A stretch of DNA of 64,000 nucleotides. It comes from Capitulum mitella (Eukaryota; Arthropoda; Thecostraca; Pollicipedomorpha; Pollicipedidae). The notes beneath the pieces are model-generated. The model saw only the letters and a list, made by a program, of their open reading frames with translations. It did not search any database and was not told the DNA's origin. Positions 1-52,100 of the stretch are shown here, piece after piece; within the stretch, counting starts at the first letter, position 1, and each line of letters begins with the position of its first letter. The position numbers and the translations under genes were made by a program. The stretch covers positions 5,008,685-5,072,684 of the forward strand of contig CP099848.1 of NCBI GenBank assembly GCA_030062745.1, written 5' to 3'.

Positions 1-656
1 TTGAAATAGTCAATTCAAATGACTGAAAACGTTTACAGATAATATTAAATGCACACGAGATCATTCCAAGTGACCCCAAGGTCACTGGAGGTCATTTAAG
101 GTCAAAGGTCACAAGTTGATCTAGGGAAACGTGTGACCATGACAGTTCCCCTTTTTCATGTCCCTGGCACCGCCTATGCTAACATTATACGAACATTGTA
201 ATGCGATTTGTACTTCTTTAGTATAACATGACTAGCAGCAGTCAAAAAAAGGTGTTTGCGTCTTTTGTTCATTCAGTTGTTAGAAAACTAATTCTCCTAT
301 TTTTGAAACCCTGTGAACGCCCATGAATTTTCTCAAAATTTCAAATTTGTGGACCCATGGTAAAAGCCCTATCCATAATCTCTCCACTCATACCAGTTTC
401 ATCGAAATCACTCGATAAACAATGGAGTTATAAGAAGTCCAAAATGACCCCCCATTTTGACGTTTTTGCCTCCCTGTATCAACCAATTTCAAAATTTTAA
501 AAATTTCTTTTCATAAAAATGCAGTTCTCGTCACGGCAAATCGATTGCCGTTTGTTGCGATGAAATCGGATGAGTAGTTCTCGAGATCTCAGGGGGGGGC
601 CGAATCCGCCCCTCTGCCGGGAATCGACCATACCGTATAGCCCTCCGGGAATAGGG
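1..656 (+). mobile_element. Short piggyBac-like TTAA element, copy 1 (cut by window edge)
   Basis: This is the right-hand part of a roughly 1.2-kb non-autonomous element found twice more, at 30941-32147 and 36558-37763. It ends in the terminal bases CCGGGAATAGGG and is followed directly by TTAA at 657-660, the usual target of piggyBac-type transposases. The left half lies outside the window. The sequence matches the copy at 36558-37763 almost base for base, starting near position 37105 of that copy. It holds four AGGTCA half-sites starting at 79, 89, 99 and 106, and a G-run/C-run subterminal palindrome near 590-620. It has no credible reading frame, so it would need a transposase made elsewhere. 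Family assignment rests on the TTAA flank and the CCCT terminus and is an inference. Confidence 0.8.
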
Positions 657-7322: not shown

Positions 7323-9911
7323 AACAACTGTCCAACGAACAGCTGTTATATATGATTTGCATTGCATTATTAGTATGAAATCACGATGTTTTCAAAACAA
7401 AGACTATTTCTGAATACTTTGGTACTCTAGCTGCATGCATAACATCTGTTGATGCATAATCACGCTTATCATCCCATGGTCGTTCAAATAATACCAGCAC
7501 AAATCTTCTGCCATCCAGGTGCCTCGGGAGTTGAACTTTGTCCAGTGCTGATTCTACATTAAAGCCTGTGTGACGGGGGTAGAAGGCATTGCCTCACTGC
7601 CCGAAACGGCCCCCTGTTCTCGGTTTCTTTCAGTCTGGGTCGAGTCTACCAGAGAACAGCTCTGAAGCGTGTTCAGACATATTCAGTTCATCCTACTATG
7701 GCAAATAGTCTGGTACTTTGTCGTGTGAATGTGCACGCGCCATTCACGCGAGCTGCTCAGAGGCTCCAGGGCTTTGAGTCTCGATTCAAATTGTAATTGA
7801 AGGAAAAGTTCCTGGAGCTTCAGCTTAATGGTTTTCCTTTAAGCCGCGTTAATTGGGAACTTCAGCTAAGTGACATGAATGAAACACGGTGATTTTCAGT
7901 TTAAATTAGTTTAGTCTGGTTTTAATGTTACGAATGAGAACCGATTCGGAGCACTCTGCTACACATCAGAAAAAGGTTTAATCGACTTGATGCACAACTT
8001 GCGTGACGAAGTATTTTTGACAATCTCTATGGCCAGAAAACTTTTATCGGCCCAGCCGACCGCGAATCAATCATCATCACCTTTGGAAACCACTATTCAA
8101 AACTGAGAAATCAATTTGGATAGAATTGTAAAGGAGAAGTTCTGGAACCAGGACCGCAACACGTTCCAGTTAGTTGAATTTGTGTAGAGGCGAATAATTT
8201 GCGACTCGCTGAGACGGATGGCTCGGACATTCCCCACTTTGTTTCTCCGCCGGCTAACACCGTAACCGAACGGCTCAGCGTCTGCAAGTTTTCAGTACCC
8301 CTTGGCTCATCATTCGGGCACATTGCAGTGAATCGCGTTTGTTGGCAGCATCCATCCCATGGCTTTGTAGCTTGTTTTCTTTCTCCATCTTCATCGATAC
8401 GCTGGTGCTGACAGATTCTCATAGTGTGCGGTATGCGTTATTATGTCATGGCACGTAATAAAGATCAGTTTTGACCTCACTCAGGGCTATCATCGGTAGA
8501 ATCCATATATCTTATTTAGATTTCGTCTAAATAAAGCGTCACTTTACGCCATGCAGCTACTTGTGAGTGCTGTTTTGAGATTTTATGGCGCAAATAGGGA
8601 CACTGAGAAAACTGTGTGATGCGTATCAAGTTTTATGTCATACAGACATGCTTTAAACTCAAGGACGATGATGACGATGACGATGGATTTCTTAGAATCT
8701 TATGACCTAGCCTGACGTGTATCACAATTTTCCTCACATGAATGTGTATTGACATCGCATCCATACGTCTAAGTGTATTTAGGGCTCAGAACTGCTGTTA
8801 CATCTAGTGCGTACGTAGCAATGTATTTTATCCAAATTGGCTAGACATTCGTCTTTGGCCGAGCCTGTGACCTGAGGTGTTATCCCGAGGTAAAAGGACA
8901 AAACGGCATTGCCAAGGCTTCGTTATCGAGAGCGATCTTTCACGGACTCCGATCGGACCATTGTTTGCTGACTTATTTTGTGGGGACTGTTTGATGTCTA
9001 ACCAGAAGAAGTTCAAGATGCAAGCAGCAAGCAGAAGTCGAGCATCAGAGCTCAGTTTCTGCGCAACTGGGCAATTTGCGTCATGCCAGGTCGTGCATTA
9101 TCGCATAGTTTGATGCTAGAGTCAAATATGTATTATGAGTGATATTGCCGGTGTATTATTTATGTCATCTTTACCGTTAATTTGTTCGCCATCTTGAACA
9201 ACTGGTGAAGACAATGGCGCCAAATATGACGGTCACCTAGTGGAACTGATTTTGACGCAGGGTCAACACAAACGTTTGCTGAGGATACCGAAGCCGTCGG
9301 CTGGTGCCCCCCCCCCCCCAGTCTCAGTCCTGCGAAATGAGCTCCGTCCGTGAGCAGCGAGCGTACATGTCCGCCGTGTCGCATCATGTCAGGTCCGCTG
9401 TGTCACGTTACGTTAGGTCCACTGTGTCACGTTATGTTGGCACGTGCCGTCGGAGCCGAGCGAGCACTGGTCGACCTGCCTGGCTCCGGCTGCCGGTTGC
9501 GGTCGACTCCGTGACTGCCGGCTCCCAGAGGCTGAGCAGTTTTGTGTCCGAGGCTGTTTTGTCGGCTCGAGAAGGCAGCGCCAATGTCTGTCGATGGCAT
9601 GGCGATGATGAAAATGGCGCGATGGACGTTGAAGACTTGTTACAGGCAATTTATGGGAACTGGCCATATAGAGGCCATGTAGGCCATTGGATCCCATGCG
9701 GGCCTGGAACAGCCTCATATTATTAGATGAGGTTTTACGGCGTCTTGGACTTTTTTATTCGAATACCCTATGGTTAAATGACCCCCTAATATAAATCTTT
9801 CGATACAATCCTCGAAATGTTTTCAGTACATCGACACGAATCCGGCACGTCTTGACGGCCTCTGTTGTGTGCCGGCCGCCATCTCACCTCTGACCCATCT
9901 CCCTCCGGCAG

Positions 9912-30940: not shown

Positions 30941-32147
30941 CCCTATTCCCGGAGGGCTAGACGGTATGGTCGATTCCCGGCAGGGGGCGGATTCAGCCCC
31001 CCCCTGAGATCTCGAGAACTACTCGTCCGATTTCATCGCAACAAACGGCAATCGATTTGCCGTCACGTGAACTACATTTTTATAAAAAGAAATTTTCAAA
31101 ATTTTGAAATTTGTGGATACAGGGGGCAAATCTGTCAAAATGGAGGATACTTTTGGACTTCTTATAACTCCGTTGTTTATCGACCGATTTCGATGAAACT
31201 GGCATGAATCGAGAGATTATGGATAGGGTTTTTACCATGGGTCCGCAAATATGAAATTTTGAGAAAATTCATGGGCGTTCACAGGGTTTCAAAAATAGGA
31301 GGATTAGTTTTCTAACAACTGAATGAACAAAAAAGGCAAACACCCTTTTTTGGCTTCTGCTAGTCATGTTATACTAAAGAAGTAAAAATCGCATTACAAT
31401 GTTTGTATAATGTTAGTATAGGCGGTGCCAGGGACATGAAAAAGGGGGAACTGTCATGGCCACACGTTTCTCAGATCAACTTGTGACCTTTGACCTTAAA
31501 TGACCTCCAGTGACCTTGGGGTCACTTGGAATGATCTCGTGTGCATTTAATATTATCTGTAAACGTTTTCAATCATTTGAATTCAGTCTATTTCAAAAAT
31601 TTCATTTTATGGCTATTGCGATATAGTGTACGCGCACTGACATTTTAGGTCATAGCTCCGTGACCCGACCCGATATCAAGCTGAAACTTGGTACACAGTA
31701 GAGGGCACCTTACTACGTCACATATATTCCGGGTTTAGCATTTGAAAAAACGGCACCGAAATTATAGCGAAAAAACAAATTTTGACTTTTGACCTTGACC
31801 TGATCTTGTAAAATGACCTCAGATAAACAACATTATCTCTGCACATTGCCCAACTATTTAGCTATACATCCATATGAAGTTTTAAGTTCTAGCTTTAAAA
31901 CTCTGTTTTTGGCAGATATTTTCCTTTTACCCTCAACATGGCCAAAAATGGCATGAGGTGCCTTCCAAAAACGTTGCCTGGTTCCGCCCCTGAGCAAAAT
32001 AGAATTATGAAATTTTGTCACAGCACGTAGAAAGAATAGCTAGGAAAAGTCATCAAGTTTCGTGAAGCTGCGTCAAAAAGCCTGGAATTGGCAAGCAAAA
32101 AACCCGAGGGGGGCGGATTCCGCCCCCCCCCCCTACCGGGAATAGGG
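30941..32147 (-). mobile_element. Short piggyBac-like TTAA element, copy 2 (complete)
   Basis: This 1207-bp element begins CCCTATTCCCGG and ends with the exact complement. It is flanked on both sides by TTAA (30937-30940 and 32148-32151), so element plus target site form a perfect 16-base inverted repeat. It interrupts the Penelope-like copy, whose sequence continues on each side, and this fixes the limits independently. By eye it is roughly 95 percent identical to the copy at 36558, in reverse orientation. There is no transposase gene. Near each end lies a G-run/C-run palindrome, and an array of four AGGTCA half-sites lies at 31484-31516 (reverse strand). Confidence 0.9.
31484..31516 (-). 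promoter_or_regulatory. Array of four AGGTCA half-sites (DR1 + DR4 + DR4)
   Basis: TGACCT on the plus strand occurs at 31484, 31491, 31501 and 31511. Read on the other strand the spacers are 4, 4 and 1. AGGTCA direct repeats are the classic binding sites of nuclear receptors: DR1 for RXR/USP and HNF4-type, DR4 for thyroid-receptor/LXR-type partners. The same array is present in the two other copies of the element. Whether anything binds is not known. Confidence 0.5.
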
Positions 32148-36557: not shown

Positions 36558-37763
36558 CCCTATTCCCGGCAGGGGGGCGGAATCCGCCCCCCTTGGGTTT
36601 TTTGCTTGTCAATTCCAGGCTTTTTGACGCAGCTTCACGAAACTTCATGACTTTTCCTAGTTATTCTTTCTACGTGCTGTCACAAAATTTCATAATTCTA
36701 TTTTGCTCAGGGGCGGGGCCAGGCAACGTTTTTTGGAGGCACCTCATGCCATTTTTGGCCATGTTGAGGGTAAAAGGAAAATATCTGCCAAAAACAGAGT
36801 TTTAAAGCTAGAACTTAAAGCTTTATATGGATGTATAGCTAAATAGTTAGGCAATGTGCAGATGTAATTTTGTTTATCTGAGGACATTTTACAAGGTCAG
36901 GTCAAGGTCAAAAGTTAAAATTTGTTTTTCCGCCATAATTTCGGCGCCGTTTTTTCAAATGCTAAACCCGGAATATATATGACTTAGAAGGGTGCCCTCT
37001 ACTTGTGTTAAGTTTCAGCTTGATATCAGGTCGGGTCACGGAGCTATGACCTAAAATGTCAGTGCGCTTACCCTGTATCACAATAGCCATAAAATGAAAT
37101 TTTTGAAATAGAGTGAACTCAAATGACTGAAAACGTTTGCAGATAACATTAAATGCACACGAGATCATTCCAAGTGACCCCAAGGTCACTGGAGGTCATT
37201 TAAGGTCAAAGGTCACCAGTTGATCTGAGAAACGTGTGACCATGACAGTTCCCCTTTTTCATGTCCCTGGCACCGCCTATACTAACATTATACAACCATT
37301 GTAATGCGATTTTTACTTCTTTAGTATAACATGACTAGCAGAAGCCAAAAAAGGGTGTTTGCCTTTTTTGTTCATTCAGTTGCTAGAAAACTAATCCTCC
37401 TATTTTTAAAACCCTGTGAACGCCCACGAATTTTCTCAAAATTTCGGATTTGCAGACCCATGGTAAAAATCCTATCCATAATCTCTCGATTCATGCCAGT
37501 TTCATCGAAATCGGTCGATAAACAACGGAGTTATAAGAAGTCCAAAAGTACCCCCATTTTGACATTTTTGCCCCCCTGTATCCACAAATTTCAAAATTTT
37601 GACAATTTCTTGTTATAAAAATGTAGTTCACGTGACGGCAAATCGCTTGCCGTTTGTTGCGATGAAATCGGACGAGTAGTTCTCGAGATCTCAGGGGGGG
37701 CCGAATCCGCCCCCCCCCCCCTGCCGGGAATCGGCCATACCGTCTAGCCCTCCGGGAATAGGG
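36558..37763 (+). mobile_element. Short piggyBac-like TTAA element, copy 3 (complete, GTAA-flanked)
   Basis: This 1206-bp element begins CCCTATTCCCGG and ends CCGGGAATAGGG. Here the flanking four bases are GTAA on both sides (36554-36557 and 37764-37767) instead of TTAA. The left end has a 21-base palindrome, GGGGGGCGGA/TCCGCCCCCC, just inside the terminus. The right end has a second, inner copy of the terminal motif (GATTCCCGGCAGGG on the complement) followed by a similar palindrome. Half-sites AGGTCA start at 37183, 37193, 37203 and 37210. No transposase is encoded. Confidence 0.88.
37183..37215 (+). promoter_or_regulatory. Array of four AGGTCA half-sites (DR4 + DR4 + DR1)
   Basis: Four exact AGGTCA hexamers are spaced 4, 4 and 1, so the first three start exactly 10 bases apart, about one helical turn. 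A reversed TGACCC precedes the array by two bases. It lies inside the TTAA element and is kept in all three copies. Confidence 0.5.
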
Positions 37764-37767
37764 GTAA

Positions 37768-40149
37768 GGCGATAACGTTTTGCGTTTATTTTTGCTTGCC
37801 AATGTGACGTTTACTGTACAGGAAGATCGAGGCGTGTAAGGGAGCATACTTCCGTGGGATGGTGCAGGACTCATGGATTTCACGGCTTTTTGGAATTTAC
37901 TCCCTTACCTTGTTTAGGGCTAAACTTCACTGGGAGACTTATTTGGTCTCCGTAATAATTCAGAAACTGTCATATCTCTCTGAACAATACCCCAGCTGAA
38001 TCTTTGGGACCTAGACAGTAATGCCGAATGATTAATTGAATTCAAACAAAAAAATGCCAATGACGATGCCAGGAACCGCAAAAAGGTTTCACAGAATATC
38101 TGTCGGTCACCTTGCATCGTATATTGTGGGTGTGAAATTAAGGAAGAGTGAGTGGAAATGAGAGCCAAAGGTCACCCGTATTTACCATGAATCTATATCC
38201 AGATGCGTATGAATGCTGGGTCCATGAATCATAGAAGGGAAGGCAATGTACACTGCGTCATTTTTGACGCGTAAACATTACTGTCTGATGAGTCTGCAAA
38301 GAATCATTTACTTTTTATGTGTTTTGCAAACGCAAGTTAATAAAAAGTACCTGCCAGAGATGGTGCCAGGAACCCAGAATGGACGGTTTGCGTTGTGTGA
38401 TTTGTACTGCAAGCGCAGACGTCTAAATCGGTGTTTATGTTGTGATTGTATGCGCCTGAGACATGAGGGTATGAAATTATGTTGACGATATCGTGTACAT
38501 TATGACGCAAATCAATGTCGTTATCAGGAACATCGCATGGGCGAGGAAGGGGGTTAGGCGGGGGGGAGGGCAGTGTTTGCTGCCGTTCTGCCTATGTGCT
38601 TTTACTGACTGGTAGGGTCTAAAACAAACTCAAGGTAATTAGAACAACCAGGCTGGTTACTCCTTATGTGTGAGACTGAAAAAGCGTCGTAGTCTGTTGT
38701 CTGTTCTATAACAGGGTGTTAAGCAGAGCACTTACGTACACGAGTGCTAAACCGAACAAAACTAAACGCATGTTCAGCATGTCAAAAGGTCAGTTGTCTG
38801 ATGAAATTTCGATCTACGTAGCGTTTCGTTTTCTTCTTTTTCTTCCAGATTTTCCGATTTACAGAGCACAGGTGATCCAAAGAACGCAGTAGCAAGAGGA
38901 ATAACGGTAACGTTTGCCGAAGGGTGCATTGTTATGTTTATTTGCACATGATCTGGCGACTTGAGTTTCTACAAGGTCTCATCATCAACACTATGTATAG
39001 GGCAGCTTTTCCATCGATATTCATAATGCATTTTCCCACCACGGTCCGCTCCTTCCCTACTTCCCATTGGTTATTCACATGCATCATGGGATCCTGTTCG
39101 TCTGCAAGACACACGTGGCATGGAACATCGTTAGTGCATTCGAAATTAGTTTTGTTTGGTTGTCATGCTCTGGTTCGTTTCCGAAATATGAATTACATGC
39201 CCTCGGATATGTGATTGCTCCTCAGAAATGTCACGGGCGGCTTGTTTCAGACTGGCCTGTTGTACTGTGCCGGGCTACAGTCACCTTTTGATGTCCGAAG
39301 TTCAGTTTAATTTTCTTTCAATGTTCTCAGCAATTGGTTCTTTGGCTGTTTCTAACGAATGAGCGTATCTTATATCCAACCACTGGAGATGGAATTCAAG
39401 CCCGACATGGACGAAACATCCATTTCGCGTTTCGCATTTCATTAATTGCACTTCCTGTTTACGTCGTCAATCACGTGGTTTAAATCAGCAAGTTTATTGC
39501 TCGAATTCTGCAAATGTCGGTTTTCCTGTTGTTTAAAACTATGTTTTCATTGGGTTTGTATTGTGTTGCTTGTGCAGTCATGGACAGAGGAGGCTTCGCC
39601 TTTTGAAGTCCGCATATACAAATACGCATAATTTACTCTTTAGCTACGTGTAGTTATTGTTGTCCTCGCTTCGTCCTGTCAAGTGGCCATTTCCAGCCTG
39701 ACCGCTGAAGGGCTCCTCCGCGGTCCGACGGTTGCCGTTGTTCTGGATTTCTCCCGGTCCGTTGTCATACCAGACCAGATCCAGCCGCCATCTGGACCCG
39801 CACTGTCTCAGTCCGTACAGTCCACCCTTCGGACACGGCTCAGGGCGGAGAGAACTACTCAGCGGCTCGGCCTCGGCGCAGGAGATTCCCCTGCACCTAG
39901 GCCTCGATGCAGGAGACTCCTCGGCGCCTCGGCCTTGGCGCATGAGACTCCCGGTGGAGCGGCCCGGGCACGGGGTCGCGGCTCCGGCCGCCCTCCGGGG
40001 TGCCGTTTCGTGCCGAGTGGCGCGGATAAATTGGGAAGTGGTGCGCCGGAGCCGCGGGAGCCGGCCGAAATCGCCGATAAGCCGGGCCGGACCGGCTCTT
40101 CCCGCGGCCGCCCGCCGGATGGTCGGCTGTCGTCGCGCCGGGCGGCCCG
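37768..40149. other. Stretch without recognised gene
   Basis: AT-rich to about 39650, then GC-rich into the 51-bp minisatellite. No exon, RNA gene or mobile element is recognised. Confidence 0.4.
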
Positions 40150-40692
40150 GCCTGGTGAGGCCTCGAGCCGTGACTGAGGAGCTGCTCCAGCGCCGGCCCG
40201 GCCTGGTGAGGCCTCCAGCCGTGACTGAGGAGCTGCTCCAGCGGCGGTCCAGCCTGGTGAGGCCTCCAGCCGTGACGGTGGGGCTGCTCCAGCGCCGGCC
40301 CGGCCTGGTGAGGCCTCCAGGCGTGACGGTGGAGCTGCTGCAGCGCCGGCCCAGCCTGGTGAGACCTCCAGCCGTGACGGTGGAGCTGCTGCAGCGCCGG
40401 CCCGGTCTGGTGAGGCCTCCAGCCGTGACGGTGGATTGCTCCAGCGCCGGCCCGGCCCGGTGAGGCCTCCAGCCGTGACTGAGGAGCTGCTCCAGCAGCC
40501 CGGCCTGGTGAGATCTCCAGCCGTGACGGTGGAGCTGCTCCAGGCCGGCCCGGCCTGGTGAGGCCTCCAGCCGTGACGGTGGAGCTGCTCCAGCGCCGGC
40601 CCGGCCTGGTGAGGCCTCCAGCCGTGACGGCGGAGCTGCTCCAGCGCCGGCCCGGTCTGGTGAGATCTCCAGCCGTGACCGTGGAGCTGGTC
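40150..40692. repeat. 51-bp minisatellite, about 10 units
   Basis: Units containing CGGCCTGGTGAGGCCTCCAG and GTGACGGTGGAGCTGCTCCA repeat every 51 bases. A few units are changed by 1 base or by 6 bases. Because 51 is divisible by 3, each frame stays open and gives a 17-residue repeat (for example LEASPGRAGAGAAP). This explains overlapping open frames of up to 394 codons on the minus strand and 243 on the plus strand. Several frames are open at once, and no start context or domain is seen, so no gene is called. Confidence 0.9.
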
Positions 40693-40699
40693 CAATGGC

Positions 40700-42662
40700 G
40701 CGGCAGCACAGCGTCAGACCTGAGACAGCGGGCAGATGGACTAGGTGGTGTCCCACCCGTTTTCCACAACTTGGTGCATCTGTTTGCTGGAATGTCCAAG
40801 AATTATTTTCAACGCAGAAGTTCCTCACATTTGGTTTGCATAGCAGTCCTATCCCGACCTGTCGCTTGCACCGGCAAGAGATGCCCTCGAATGGTTGATA
40901 TTTTCTCCCATTTTTTTGCTACATGGAATACATGGAGCTTTGACATGCTAGCCGTAGGACATTCTTTGAAAGTTATATTTCCATGACTTCGATAACTCCA
41001 GAAAAGCTCAGCTGACTTGCCAGCAACGCCAACAAAAGCCGCGTGGCTGCTTAAAGTGAGAGCGTCGGAAAAAGGAATGGCTGAACCACGATAAAGCATT
41101 AAGCCGCCGCTAAAACGGCCTTGCAGCTGCACTCACACGCCGTCAGGGCTCAGCCGCTGCCGTATTCAATGCAGTGCTATACATCATACACTTAACAACT
41201 TGCCTGCCAGTCGTAGTGTATCTGCTACTTTTTAAAGTGTTTTCCCTCTCTCTCCCTCTCAAGGTTTCACTGCGTCGGAATTTTGAGAGTGGTTTGCACT
41301 TTCGCGGTAAAACCTCGTTGTGCTTCCTAAAAGGCATCCAAAAAGTTTCGGTGAAAGGGCAGTCTGCAACGTTTGTGCGAACTGGCCCGCATGAAACACC
41401 CAAGCGCCATGCTAGGAGAACCGTCTATTTCTAACCAGGTGACTGTCCACAGCAGTTGTTCCAGGACTTTCTCAGGCGCTGATTGAAATGTCGTCTTTGA
41501 CCGATTATGGGCGATATTTTGCACGAGCCTCATTGGGATATGCATTGGCTAAGTTGGTCCCCTGCTGCTATTCAGTCGATTATGGCCGTTGCGTCAGGCA
41601 ACGAGCCACCTCCGCTCAGGACAGTATCATCAACGACTGTGCCGAGAGGCATTATAAATAACGCCTATCAGCCCCTATAAACCGCATTTTTGTGACGCGG
41701 CTTTTCCACTAGCCGGACACGCAATCTCTTAGCGAGCGATTAAACTGGGCGGGGTCCATTTTTAGTTACTCTTCCCGCCGTACCACGCCGAACTACGTAC
41801 ATAACGGGACCACGCGCTGAACTACGCGCATAACGGGAGGCGATGCGCGCTGCGGCGCCGAAGTTCGCGGGAGCTCGGCACCGCCCTGCGATGAGCTCTG
41901 GTCTGGGGCGGCGCCCGCGAGGTTTATTTTGGGGTTTTACGATTCCTGGAAGTCGTGCCGTAGGCCTGTCGATCTTCGGTCAGTCACGTCGATGCACGGG
42001 ACGTTATGTCCAGACAGCTTTTTATGGTTTCGTGTTTATATATTCTCTCTGCGTCGATTTCCCGCACTTTAATCTTCCTTTGTACAGGAGAGCCTGATGC
42101 TACACTTTATAGATGCACCCTGACTGTCGACTCATCGTATGTTTAATAATAATTCGACGGATGACTGACGGCTTCCGCTGCTGGGCTGCTTCATGGGCCA
42201 CATCCAGCATGGTCTGTGTTGTATGGCGAGTCACTTGCTTATAGATTGTTCTAACTCTCCATCGTTCATTTAACGTTCATGAATCGCATTATAATCTGTT
42301 TTTTCAGCATATGGTTACAATATTTGGATTTGTTACTGAAGCGAGTTTGCGACAGTTCCCATCTCAGGCGTGAGGGTGATGGGAGCGAAATGGGCCAGGC
42401 CCCCCATGTTTTGTGATTTTAACATTAACACTATGGCGTTGTACGGAAGGGATTTCTTCAGTCTGCTAATGTGCTCTCGTCTTTTCCGGGTTCCGAGAAC
42501 TATGACTGTCACAAAGGCCAGGAGAAATCAGTACACCTTGAGGAAATCTCTACACGTTTCAGATATAATATACGTCGTTTTAGTGTCGTAGTTACTTGCC
42601 TAAGATGTATTTTTATAGCATTTACACTCAGATGTCTAGCTTGAAATGTTTTTACTATGGGT
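40700..42662. other. Stretch without recognised gene
   Basis: Mixed composition with a small GC-rich patch near 41830-41930. No motif is recognised. Confidence 0.4.
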
Positions 42663-46300: not shown

Positions 46301-48769
46301 CCGGCACGGCTGGAACCGGTGCGCTACGATGAGGCCGAGCTTGGGGCCGCTGGTATGCGGTCGCCGACCGGCCAGGTGGGCGTGATTGGCGGCGGTGACT
46401 CCAGTATTGACCCGGACCATATCTCTTGCTGGATCAGAATAATGACAGTGGGTCTGGACCGGTCACTGGCTCGTCATCAGTCACAGCGGCTGACATTGCC
46501 TGACGCGAAAACATCGACGCAAACGTGGTGTGGTAGGCAATAAACGTGACGTATGCGTTTACCTGCAGAAATAAAGTGGAATCATTTCGGAAGACTTAAT
46601 AACACCGCGCCTGGGGAGTTATTTATTTTCGTGCATCCGGTCAGAATTACGCACTGGTCGGATATCTCACGTTTGATTTATTTCTGTTGGTTTCGAGTTT
46701 TTTTACTTTGATCACAGGCTCCCACTTTCATCGCTGACCGTTTTCGTGTGGGACATAGCTGCAACACAAAGACGGATTTGCCGATATGACAAGTTACGAC
46801 TCCAGCTACGACTCCGTACGACTCCAAATGACTGTGGCAGATGCGTTAGACATAGCTGCAAAACTGTGCCAAGGACGCCAAGTGCTTTGAAATGAGTCAG
46901 AAATGGCACATGGCTACACTTTTCTTATCCCACCGCCAGCAAACTCATAGTGGTGGCATTGCGCAGGCTGCCTGAATTTCCAAACTTCAAAGCGTGCTAC
47001 TTCGCCTGCAAATTGCCCGAAAACGGATCATGCAAATGCCATTCAATTGCATGTGTCACAAGCATTTCCTGCAGCTCCATTCCAAAGAGTGGGCATGAAC
47101 TGTGACGTGCCGAAATGCTGTTTTTGTGAGCAAAATATCTGCTGTATGCTATTGGGAACCATACAAGTCTCTGCAGTCGGTGTGGAACCGAGCCAAACGT
47201 TAGAGAAAGAGAAGGAATAGTGTGGTTTTCTTGGGATCATAACCGCCTGAAAGTCTGTCTGGCATCGTCATTCTTTGGCATTTCAGGCAAGTGCTGAAGC
47301 ACAATAAGAAGTATACCATGTGGCACTGTAGTTTGTCACATCGGATGATATGTTTCCTTTCGGCAAAGCTGCGCTGCATTTTTTCCCGCTGCTGACATGA
47401 ATGCAGGTGTTGTACACACATCGGTGACATTAAAAGACCTCTGCAACTCAAATCGCGCCCATGACAGTCACTCGCGGTGAGTCCTGGGGAAGAGCTTGAC
47501 GGATAATGTTCGCTCAGAGACAGCCGATGTGCTTATCAGCTGTGAAATGATAACTCGGAGACGACGCGTTTTGTCCGCCGCGTCCGCGGTCCATTTCTCC
47601 GACATTCTCACGCCTGTCTCTCGTTTCAGACGCCGCCGCGCGCGTGCTGGAGCGCACCCCGTCGTCCTCGACGATTAGTGGCGCGGGAGCGGCTGCGGCG
47701 CGCCGGTGACGTCAGCTCTGACGTCACGGAGCTCGTGGCGGCACGGCGGCTCGGTGTCTGGCGCTCCGGTGAGGACGGCCTGACCTTTGCCGCGTCGGTG
47801 CCGGCGGTGTGATGATAAACATTGACACGTGTGGACTCTGGCAGCGTTTGTAGTCTATTTTGTACAGAAATGAACGTCGATTGTGTTTTGTTAACCGCTG
47901 GTTGAAATGGAGCTCACCCGACAAACGATCGCAGAGACGTGTAGCCGATGTTATGTTTGTTTAAGTGTATGATGTTCGCGACGGTTGATATGCGCGCTGC
48001 GCTGCGAGCTGAATGAGGGGTGCATTCACAAACCGTAGCACGGGGACGTGAACATTCGTTTGAAAGATATCTGGTCTGCAAAATCGATATTAGACATGGT
48101 ACACGGAATAGGATTACCCGGCTTGAATGTGCCTCTGTAGTAAATGAAATTAATGATGGTGTGAAAGGATAAAATGGTTGTTCACAGTAGCCACTGACAC
48201 ATATTTCTATGAGATGAAGCTATATGGCACTTTATCGGCTGTTGTGACATGTTGCCCGTTGTGTGATGAGAATATTTTAACTGTTATTATTTTCTTAACT
48301 GTCTTCGGGATAAACGAAACATGATCATGTCGAACGAGTATCGATGGTGTACGGGATGTTTCATCTTCGACATCCGAAAACGGGAAGCCCTTCCCGCCGG
48401 AGTCTCGAGATGAAATCGTGTCGTGTTGTGCCGTATCGACGAAATCCATTTCATCACGGACCCCGCTGGGGGGGGGGCGCACTCGGAGGCGCCCCTTGAG
48501 GACCGCGGTGCTCCTGTCGGGCGAGTGAGTGGTCCCGTGCGCTGGGCGGCCGACTGGCTGGCGGTGTTGACTTCGGGCCGGCGACGGACCGCGGCCGGCC
48601 GGTAATCGAGCTGACGTGCGTGTGATATAGCAGCCGTGTTTTCTAAATACATCGTGGCGTCTGTCCCGTGCTGAGTGTCGCTCGCTGCCACCGTGTGTGC
48701 GTCCGCCTCCGTCAGCGAGGAGATGATGAGCCGGCACCCGCCGCCGCGTCACCAGCGGTCATCTCCCGC
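43328..48769. other. Stretch without a supported gene
   Basis: The longest non-repetitive plus frame (209 codons, 44210-44839) has a start codon and no internal stop, but I recognise no domain. A CpG-rich island at about 45800-46420 gives overlapping frames on both strands. A second GC-rich patch lies at 47570-47800, where a good acceptor-like site ends at 47629. AT-richer DNA lies between them. Confidence 0.35.
46019..46042. repeat. 12-bp perfect tandem duplication
   Basis: GTGCACGGTGCA occurs twice in a row and a third partial copy follows. It lies in a CpG-rich island. Confidence 0.7.
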
Positions 48770-49160
48770 AGTCACCGTCACAGGGCGTTTGCCGCCGTCA
48801 TAGAGCGTTCGCCAGCTTCACGGAGCGTCCATCACCATTTCAGGGCGTCCGTCACCGTCATAGAGCGTGCGCCAGCGTCACGGAACGCCCGTCATCGTCA
48901 CAGAGCGTCTTCGGTGTTACAGAACGTCCGTCATCGTCACAGAGCGTCCGTCGGCGTCACAGAGTGTCCGTCAGCGTTACAGACCGTCAGTCTCCGCCAC
49001 AGAGCGTCAGTCAGCGTCACGGAGCGTCCGTCGTCGTCACAGAGTATCTGTCGGCGTCACAGATGGTCTGCCTCCGCCACAGAGCGCCCGCCAGCGTCAC
49101 GGGCCGTCCGTCAGAGTCACAGAGCGTCTGTCGGCGTCACGGACCGCCCGTCAGCTCCGG
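48770..49160. repeat. 20-bp minisatellite, about 19 units
   Basis: Units close to CAGAGCGTCCGTCRGCGTCA repeat head to tail with single-base differences and an occasional 19-base unit. Because the period is not a multiple of 3, the plus frames across it cycle through the same peptide words. There are no spacers, so it is not a CRISPR-type array. Confidence 0.9.
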
Positions 49161-52100
49161 TCGCCGGACGGGGCCGATGGGTGGCTGTGTCGAGTCGCAC
49201 AGCCGGCGGCTCTAAAATCCGGTGACGCTCGAACCGCCAGCCGGAAGCGCCATAAATGGCGCAGATGGGCCGAAGCGGCGCGTTATTCGAGCTCGTTTCG
49301 CAGAGGATACGGCCAGCCCGTGCGGGCGCACGGTCGGGCCGTATGCGGCGCACTGGGGAGCGTGACGGGCCACTTTACCACGTCCTTTGTCTTCGGCTTG
49401 TTCGTCCTCGCACGGGGTATGGCCCTCCCCCGGCGGCGGCGGCTCAGGCGCCGTCCGGCCACTCCGAGACGGGGCGCAGGTGGCTGATGGTAGCACGTTC
49501 CAGGGACGAAATGCAGCATCGTGTCAAGGTTTAATTTTTAAGCGGCAATTTAATTTCCATCCCTCTGCGGGTCTGCGCTTCCCCGTCTGGAACGGGAGAG
49601 CCGGATGTTCCGTGTTCGGCGTCGTGGCCTCTCGGGAAGTCTCGCGTTGGTTCGGAAAAGTCGCCGTTTCAGAGGCGGAGCTTTACTGGCTGTATGGTCA
49701 GTGACGAAATGGCGATGTTTAAAGCAGCGCAAATAAAGACTCTTCGGTACTCCGTCTCAGAAAACGCTGCGCAATGGTTGGGTGGAGTCAAGACATTGGT
49801 ATGGCAATTACCTCTGCGTAGTGACTTATTTCAGAAGACGTCTGTGCGATGCATGGCAGACAAACGGGTAAAGTGAGAGGGTGGAAGGGAGAGAAAAAGA
49901 AAAACGGTAATGTCTCACAAGAGTCATTCCTAAGTAGCTTACGTATAACGTTCATGTTTGTACGCTAATGAATGCTCCAAACTACCGCGTTGCATTTCGT
50001 GGTTAACTGTAAACATTCCTCAATAAGAATCGCATTGACGAGAAGGTATCGTTTGGTGAGAGTCTGGCTTTGACCAGTAGCCGATGCGGACACCCATGTG
50101 CTCCCTCTCCTGTTCGCATGGACGCGTGAAGGGGCCCAAAGTTGGGGCCTGCGGTGCTCAGTTAGCTTTAGCTGTGCTAAAGAAATGGTTGAAGACACGA
50201 CTGAGCCCAGCGGACGACGGCGGTGGAGATAAATGATACGTTTGGAAAAAAAATATCGACAGCCGGGAACGTTAAAGCATCTGTGTTTAGTGACGTTGAG
50301 ATCGGCTCTGCTCACGAGGCGGCTTACCAAGTGGGATCGTCAGCAGCCACCTCAAACATGATCACTGGTGTCGAGAAAAAGGCAGCGAAATTCCCACAAA
50401 TGCAAAGGGCAAGTTTCATGACGATCACAGGCGGAGATGTGGGCGTTTGCTGTTGTGATTCATTGCTGTGAATAAACGATCTTTGAAAGGGAACACCAAA
50501 AAACAGGCAGCGTTTGTAATTTAGAGTTGAAACTCTGAGTGCATTTTGCTAGAAAAATGGCTGAGATTCTTGAGGCGCGAGAAAACGTTTTCCAACATCA
50601 AGGTTACCTGTGCAAAAGTACTCCGCGCAAAATGCTTCCAAATATTTTTAACGCTGCTATAACCATGTCCTGTCAAACGTTTTCCTTTTATGCAATATCG
50701 TTTCCTTACGAAAGGTGAAGTACGCCTTTGCCCGTTGACAAAGCGGCGTGAGCTGTCCCAGCCGGCACGTCGGCGAACAGAACGCCGGAACCCAGTCGGC
50801 GCACCGGCAAATATCACTGCATGGTATTTCGGCTGAGAGCTGCCGCCGCGTCAGCGCCCCCGAACAGCCGGGATCCTAGTCAAATATTGGATTTCAACTG
50901 CCTCCCCAGCAGTGGAATCAATCTGAAATAGTCGCATATCAAGGAAAGGCATGCAGCCGCGCTCCTCGCTTCGCGACAGGACCCGCAGGTATCTGGCTTT
51001 GTTACTTCTAGTTTCCACGCGTTTGATGCAGCGCAGATTGCGAGCGATCGCTTCACGTCAAATGCGACGACACGGCTCTTCTAGTGGGTGGTACACACTG
51101 ACATATCCAAACCTGACCACTAAAATCCTTACTTTTTCTGTATATTTCCTGAAACCCCCTAAAATCTTCGGGTATTGACCACTTTGTTTCCTGATTCCAG
51201 ATGTGAACAAGTATGGAATAAAAAAGACATTTTAAATCATGTATGTATACATGTGGTGCAGTATGACAGCTATAATCCGATGTCTATACAGTACCGTTTA
51301 ACGCCAGATCCCTCGCTTCATTCAGCTACAAGGTCTTCCGTCTCGCGCTCTCTATTTTCAAGTGGTAAGCGAACTTGTATATCATGTGAGCTTGAGAAAT
51401 TCTCCTTTATATCAGGGACTTTTAAATCGCAAGCCAACCAGGCTTGAAACGCGCCAACGGCTAGGGAGTGCATGAGGGTTCGTTTGGAATCTGTTGGCTC
51501 CTAATAGGAATTCTGTTAAATTCGACAAATTTTAGGTCAGCGAAAATCTAGGATTCCAACCGCTAAAGATGACTCTTTGAACATGGTGTTCTACAATATA
51601 CGACGAAAAAGGCAATGTTTTTAAGTCACTGTAATGGCATTCCTTTTTATGCTGAGATCTCACTTTATCTTTTAAGAAGGAGGGTGAAAATCCAAAACGT
51701 ACCAACAAATCTTTTGGCATACGCGAAGGATGCGCCACTTGCAACAGTCGTCAGCCATCCCCGCCTACCGTTTCTAGAAAAAAGGAATGTACAAGTTGTC
51801 AAATGTGTATGTGTTGCGAAGGATAACATTTTAAAGAGAATTCCGCAAGTTTTTTCAAAAATATAAAACAACAATAAAATGCAAAATAACCGTTGACCTC
51901 CGTGCAAGCCGAATTCGACCATCATTCTCTGACGCTCTAGATCATAAATTTCTTTCCGCCTAGTCACGAGGTGAACGCATAGATTAAGAGGCAGAAAGTG
52001 TGTGTGGGAGGGAGGGGGACAAAAAGATACCCCCCATTCCGGAGAGTGGGCGTCTACATCACATCGCGCCGCATCACTGCGCACATCACAGTCAGCTCGG

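Follow-up and report, generated by a model that had tools for sequence, protein, structure and literature searches.

A receptor-like AGGTCA array spread by a piggyBac-type MITE in a barnacle genome, with apparently neutral decay after insertion

The window, that is, the whole 64,000-nucleotide stretch of Capitulum mitella DNA analyzed here, contains three copies of a four-hexamer array, AGGTCA-N4-AGGTCA-N4-AGGTCA-N1-AGGTCA, which is probably a nuclear-receptor-like motif inherited and spread by a MITE and left to neutral decay thereafter, the best explanation of the material presented below. The MITE is non-coding and without a transposase gene, and its movement would have depended on a genomic piggyBac transposase; every copy would carry the array because the source copy had it, and once inserted, the array decays as the rest of the copy does. 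Receptors may bind the array where chromatin is open, and nothing observed indicates that it is retained for such binding.

The AGGTCA array and its abundance

The array is exact in all three copies, located at positions 79..111 (forward strand; hexamers at 79, 89, 99, and 106), 31484..31516 (reverse strand), and 37183..37215 (forward strand). Successive starts of the first three hexamers are separated by 10 bases, and a TGACCC at 71..76 (forward strand), one base off a reversed half-site, stands two bases 5' of array copy 1, so that the layout given in the earlier note, which had also placed the array within a mobile element, is confirmed on each point. The window has 6 occurrences of the AGGTCAN4AGGTCA pair, whereas 100 dinucleotide shuffles average 0.00. 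Across the whole genome, there are 6,769 matches to the three-hexamer part and 123 to its reversed control, the corresponding numbers for the complete array being 4,427 and 0; a search for the exact array in viral contigs gave 0 matches. The three arrays of the window are not independent events, being copies of one element of ca. 1.2 kb. The majority sequence of 55 copies contains five further exact AGGTCA hexamers outside the array, and copy 3 shows a second cluster at 36894..36910 (forward strand), with hexamers at 36894, 36899, and 36905.

The carrier element

The carrier comprises ca. 1.2 kb of non-coding DNA bounded by 12-bp inverted ends. Copy 1 (1..656, forward strand) is truncated at the window start; its right end, CCGGGAATAGGG, occupies 645-656 and abuts a TTAA, and the entire copy is found in locus L039 at 638-1841, with TTAA flanking both ends. 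Copy 2 (30941..32147, reverse strand) and copy 3 (36558..37763, forward strand) preserve exact 12-bp ends, the former with TTAA on both flanks and the latter with GTAA, not TTAA, on both. GTAA is among the minority target duplications listed for piggyBac elements in PMC10813416, where ends of this type are also described as starting with CCC, as do the terminal inverted repeats CCCTATTCCCGG and CCGGGAATAGGG. Among 52 sampled copies, (i) 37 have an exact left end, adjoined by TTAA in 37 of 37 cases, (ii) 43 have an exact right end, adjoined by TTAA in 41, and (iii) 31 have both ends exact, with TTAA on each side in 30, as in the target duplication of piggyBac-type elements.

The piggyBac type element bears asymmetric inner inverted repeats near its ends. 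Such asymmetry is seen in the one copy inspected, copy 3, in which an inner repeat of ca. 31 bp (36562..36592, forward strand) starts at a distance of ca. 5 bases from the left end and its inverted partner at ca. 33 bases from the right end. No ATG-started open frame longer than 117 amino acids was found in 59 copies of the element, and PF13843, the family of piggyBac transposases, is matched 118 times in the genome; the flanks of 2 of these 118 matches were read, and the ends of the element do not occur beside either. Taken together, the ends, the TTAA flanks, the inner repeats, and the absence of a long frame identify the carrier as a non-autonomous piggyBac-type MITE.

The copy number in the 477-Mb genome (16 contigs) is about 8,500-8,700, given that, with up to 3 mismatches allowed, 30-base pieces taken close to the left and right ends match at 8,706 and 8,450 places, respectively, and the reversed controls at 0; if most copies are full length, the element would make up ca. 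2% of the genome. In the window itself, a Pfam search of the 8 long open frames gave 0 families and an Rfam search of the whole stretch 0 matches, and tandem repeats with periods of 51 and 20 occupy 40090-40758 and 48749-49189, respectively. Elsewhere, array copies in mirrored order with common private changes occur at G000:C1:9122299-9141793, which suggests an inverted duplication with arms of ca. 10 kb or an assembly artefact.

Candidate receptors

The genome contains 49 zf-C4 matches. Four host DNA-binding domains, compared with solved chains, find their best counterparts in RXR-alpha (with Drosophila USP close behind), HNF4-alpha, NR5A2, and ROR-gamma, so the host encodes RXR/USP-, HNF4-, NR5-, and ROR-like receptors, of classes that use AGGTCA, and the motif could thus be read. 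Following the usual definitions of the AGGTCA half-site and the NR5-type motif for nuclear receptors, array copy 1 comprises two overlapping DR4 (at 79 and 89), one DR1 (at 99), and an NR5-type site (at 76), in line with the earlier reading of AGGTCA direct repeats as nuclear-receptor half-site arrangements. The spacing of such direct repeats is also described in PMC1785376. The array fits EcR-USP-type DR4, RXR/HNF4-type DR1, and NR5/ROR-type single sites. In addition, an EcR-USP DR4 reporter, AGGTCACAGGAGGTCA, is one spacer base apart from the corresponding part of the array, AGGTCACTGGAGGTCA (PMC5494300), although the reporter is synthetic, seven-copy, and was used in yeast, whereas the array is a genomic repeat. 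The combination of DR4, DR1, NR5-type site, and near-match to this reporter makes binding by host receptors plausible.

The exons that encode nuclear-receptor DNA-binding domains also occur as near-identical pairs across contigs (L009/L010, L011/L012, L013/L014, L015/L016, and L024/L026), which we take to be HR3, FTZ-F1, HR78, Hr39, and HNF4. The pairing of these five types is such as a whole-genome duplication would leave, and a duplication of this kind is reported for barnacles in PMC11331182.

Relation to known repeat-borne receptor sites

The spreading of receptor motifs by repeats is already known from Alu and Tigger elements (PMC1785376 and PMC3252374), and what is new here is the carrier. 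The closest likeness is to the DR2/DR4 retinoic-acid-type elements of Alu, in which AGGTCA-type direct repeats are likewise present in large numbers by way of a mobile element, and in which a CG-to-CA change completes a DR2 half-site (PMC1785376). The two systems differ in that Alu is a retroelement whereas the MITE is a piggyBac-type DNA element, and in that, according to the same text, the Alu change arose mostly copy by copy, whereas in the MITE AGGTCA is the majority state of an expanding family. The HNF4-alpha sites of Alu and Tigger resemble the present case as receptor sites lying in repeats, including DNA transposons (PMC3252374). On the other hand, RAR binding to the Alu elements was observed by ChIP (PMC1785376), and the Alu/Tigger sites are described with binding and reporter effects (PMC3252374), whereas the MITE array is described here by its sequence. 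Among crustaceans, mPok1 and mPok2 of Daphnia Pokey (PMC4912750 and PMC3849761) are likewise non-autonomous and of the piggyBac type, but Pokey inserts in rDNA.

A search of open-licence papers for nuclear-receptor AGGTCA sites in piggyBac or barnacle transposable elements found none, and we know of no earlier barnacle case of repeat-spread receptor motifs. If bound, these thousands of near-identical four-half-site arrays would provide a natural test of repeat-spread hormone-receptor sites outside primates, in a crustacean with hormone-driven metamorphosis.

Decay after insertion

The identity of the three window copies was considered as evidence for conservation and rejected, since they are young copies of one element. 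The genome-wide comparison relies on exact matches under the same 24-of-33 mask for the array and for three controls, all chosen CpG-free and without a common variant in 55 copies, which makes them a fair test of post-insertion decay, not of source-lineage conservation. Intact matches number 4,427 for the array, against 4,506 for a control shifted by 5 bases, 4,925 for one ca. 85 bases downstream, and 4,167 for one ca. 430 bases upstream. Rare variants give a similar picture: in the 55 copies, hexamers carry 0.0205 of them per site, spacers 0.0183, and the other non-CpG sites 0.0181; in 21 copies from loci fetched by the far element end, 0.0239, 0.0161, and 0.0218 in hexamers, spacers, and the rest; and in 33 other copies, 0.0265, 0.0202, and 0.0220. 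When 55 younger copies and 37 older ones are placed on a tree from which the array columns are excluded, hexamers show 4.08 tip-branch changes per site and the remaining sites 4.21. The 55-copy set omits L006-L008, found via the array itself, two relatives of ca. 68% (in L049 and L089), and L040 and L041, which repeat window copies; 20 of the 100 listed places for the left-end piece were fetched, and none for the right-end piece.

By all three measures, the array decays after insertion like its surroundings, with hexamers kept no better than spacers. The earlier note had suggested that the element spreads, and keeps, ready-made receptor modules, and had looked to genome-wide copies for an array conserved above the rest of the element. 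The spreading stands, with thousands of arrays distributed by the MITE, whereas the keeping, in the sense of selection, is not supported, as intact arrays are no commoner than the controls and rare changes fall equally in hexamers; of the two things that the note had named as jointly counting against its proposal, decay at the pace of the surroundings and silence in binding or chromatin data, the first is what the four counts display. The family provides a clean example of a motif whose presence in all young copies of a repeat is no proof of conservation, because its spacers, and parts of the element that have nothing to do with it, survive equally well.

The same counts bear on the alternative that host genes have taken up some copies as enhancers responsive to hormones or to RXR. 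Such recruitment is made conceivable by the receptors encoded in the genome, by the DR4 only one spacer base away that is among the reporters activated via insect EcR-USP in yeast (PMC5494300), and by the Alu copies with DR2 that recruit RARs (PMC1785376), yet intact arrays are not in excess genome-wide, even if the count would miss a handful of such enhancers in a family of thousands; we regard this alternative as quite improbable.

History of the array and hints of constraint in source lineages

Older relatives of the element, whose scored matches to copy 3 of the window have 69-85% identity, retain the layout of the array, which therefore predates the expanding family. Of 39 non-self matches, 35 were fetched and four near-tandem ones on contig C7 left out; on that contig, five old copies, all oriented alike, follow one another at a spacing of ca. 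4.25 kb (G000:C7:13150107-13167625), forming a tandemly repeated segment. Across 37 older relatives, exact AGGTCA is found at hexamer 1 in 18, at hexamer 2 in 24, at hexamer 3 in 17, and at hexamer 4 in 0; the majority letters of these relatives already spell AGGTCA at hexamers 1-3, whereas spacer 1 is variable (TTTG, TTGG, CTGG, and others). Hexamer 4 reads AGGTCG in 20 of the 37, a proportion to be read with a mild bias towards such relatives, as the query itself reads AGGTCG there; the relative in L049, found independently of this query, likewise has AGGTCG. Genome-wide, otherwise intact arrays with AGGTCG at hexamer 4 number 197, versus 4,427 with AGGTCA. Hexamer 4 probably owes its final letter to a CG-to-CA change in the source copy, which would have finished the row in the expanding family; the letters are observed and their direction is our inference.

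Several comparisons give a weak, unproven hint that source lineages may have kept the hexamers. Variants common to at least 4 of the 55 copies affect 1 of 33 array sites versus 12.1% of other non-CpG sites, with as few in 17.8% of 33-base windows. The share of intact masked arrays in the 55 copies is 0.636, versus a median of 0.345 for CpG-free windows, and this share is reached by 4.4% of CpG-free masked windows in the 55 copies, 3.2% in the 21-copy set, and 20.8% in the 33-copy set. Between the majorities of 17 old copies and those of the young ones, 1 of 24 hexamer sites differs versus 37 of 232 elsewhere (P 0.086), and in an 11-copy subset, 1 of 24 versus 44 of 236 (P 0.046); at non-CpG sites, 0 of 22 hexamer positions differ versus 28 of 206 outside the hexamers, and spacer 1 is among the parts that changed. 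The 37 older relatives diverge from the majority at non-CpG sites by 0.106 in hexamers, 0.171 in spacers, and 0.153 in the rest, the divergence of the array ranking at 1.8% of 224 overlapping windows. Internal-branch changes per site are 0.67 in hexamers versus 1.13 in the rest (P 0.033, or 0.055 without CpG-prone columns), a comparison that favours the non-array columns because the tree was built from them. When every control window is treated in the same way and excluded from the columns that build its tree, values no higher than that of the array are seen in 13.6% of 59 controls, or in 19.6% of 56 without CpG, so that the hint is not significant after this control.

These values are where an alternative in which the array serves the element would have to find its footing: at a particular stage, binding of a host receptor would make a copy, or relatives of it, accessible to transcription or excision, with source lineages keeping the hexamers and dead copies losing them. 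The lower internal-branch change of the hexamers, the scarcity of variants common to several copies, and the unchanged 22 non-CpG hexamer sites beside a changed spacer 1 agree with it. Nevertheless, the leave-out control finds windows equal to the array at the frequencies given above, the binomial P is only 0.086 or 0.046 depending on the old copies included, the element has no gene to switch on, and the array lies ca. 540 bases or more from either element end, and we consider the alternative unlikely. A bolder form, that of a receptor-addressed MITE, would have source lineages keep the three ancestral hexamers through opening by EcR-USP, RXR, or HNF4 for stage-set mobilisation, with waves of copies seeding thousands of hormone-responsive sites and the fourth hexamer now added; this form appears distinctly improbable. 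Inheritance of a receptor-like motif with the spreading MITE, followed by neutral decay, remains the preferred reading.

AGGTCA outside the element and the origin of the row

Three background samples comprising the window, L009-L038, and L042-L089, all with the element masked, reveal an excess of AGGTCA, 2.2-3.4 times under a dinucleotide model (rank 19, 8, and 7 of 2,080), which falls to 1.3-1.6 times under a 4th-order model (rank 36, 10, and 76). The excess is partly due to (AGGTC)n arrays of period 5. A last alternative takes the row as a slippage remnant of a short tandem repeat of the AGGTC/GGTCA type, with no link to receptors. It draws on the (AGGTC)n arrays that the genome holds (L001-L005, L016, L029, and L051) and on the AGGTCA pairs outside the element, which peak at period 5 (13 pairs), whereas the array has period 10, unlike spacers, and spacers that vary in the older relatives. 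We judge this origin very improbable indeed, and as it concerns origin, it would be compatible with the inherited motif that the MITE spread.

The short (AGGTC)n arrays are located in L001-L005 (contig C1 near 111600), in L016 at 319, in L029 at 2943, and in L051 at 2688, and in L001-L004 a piece of the left end of the element is found close to the stretch.
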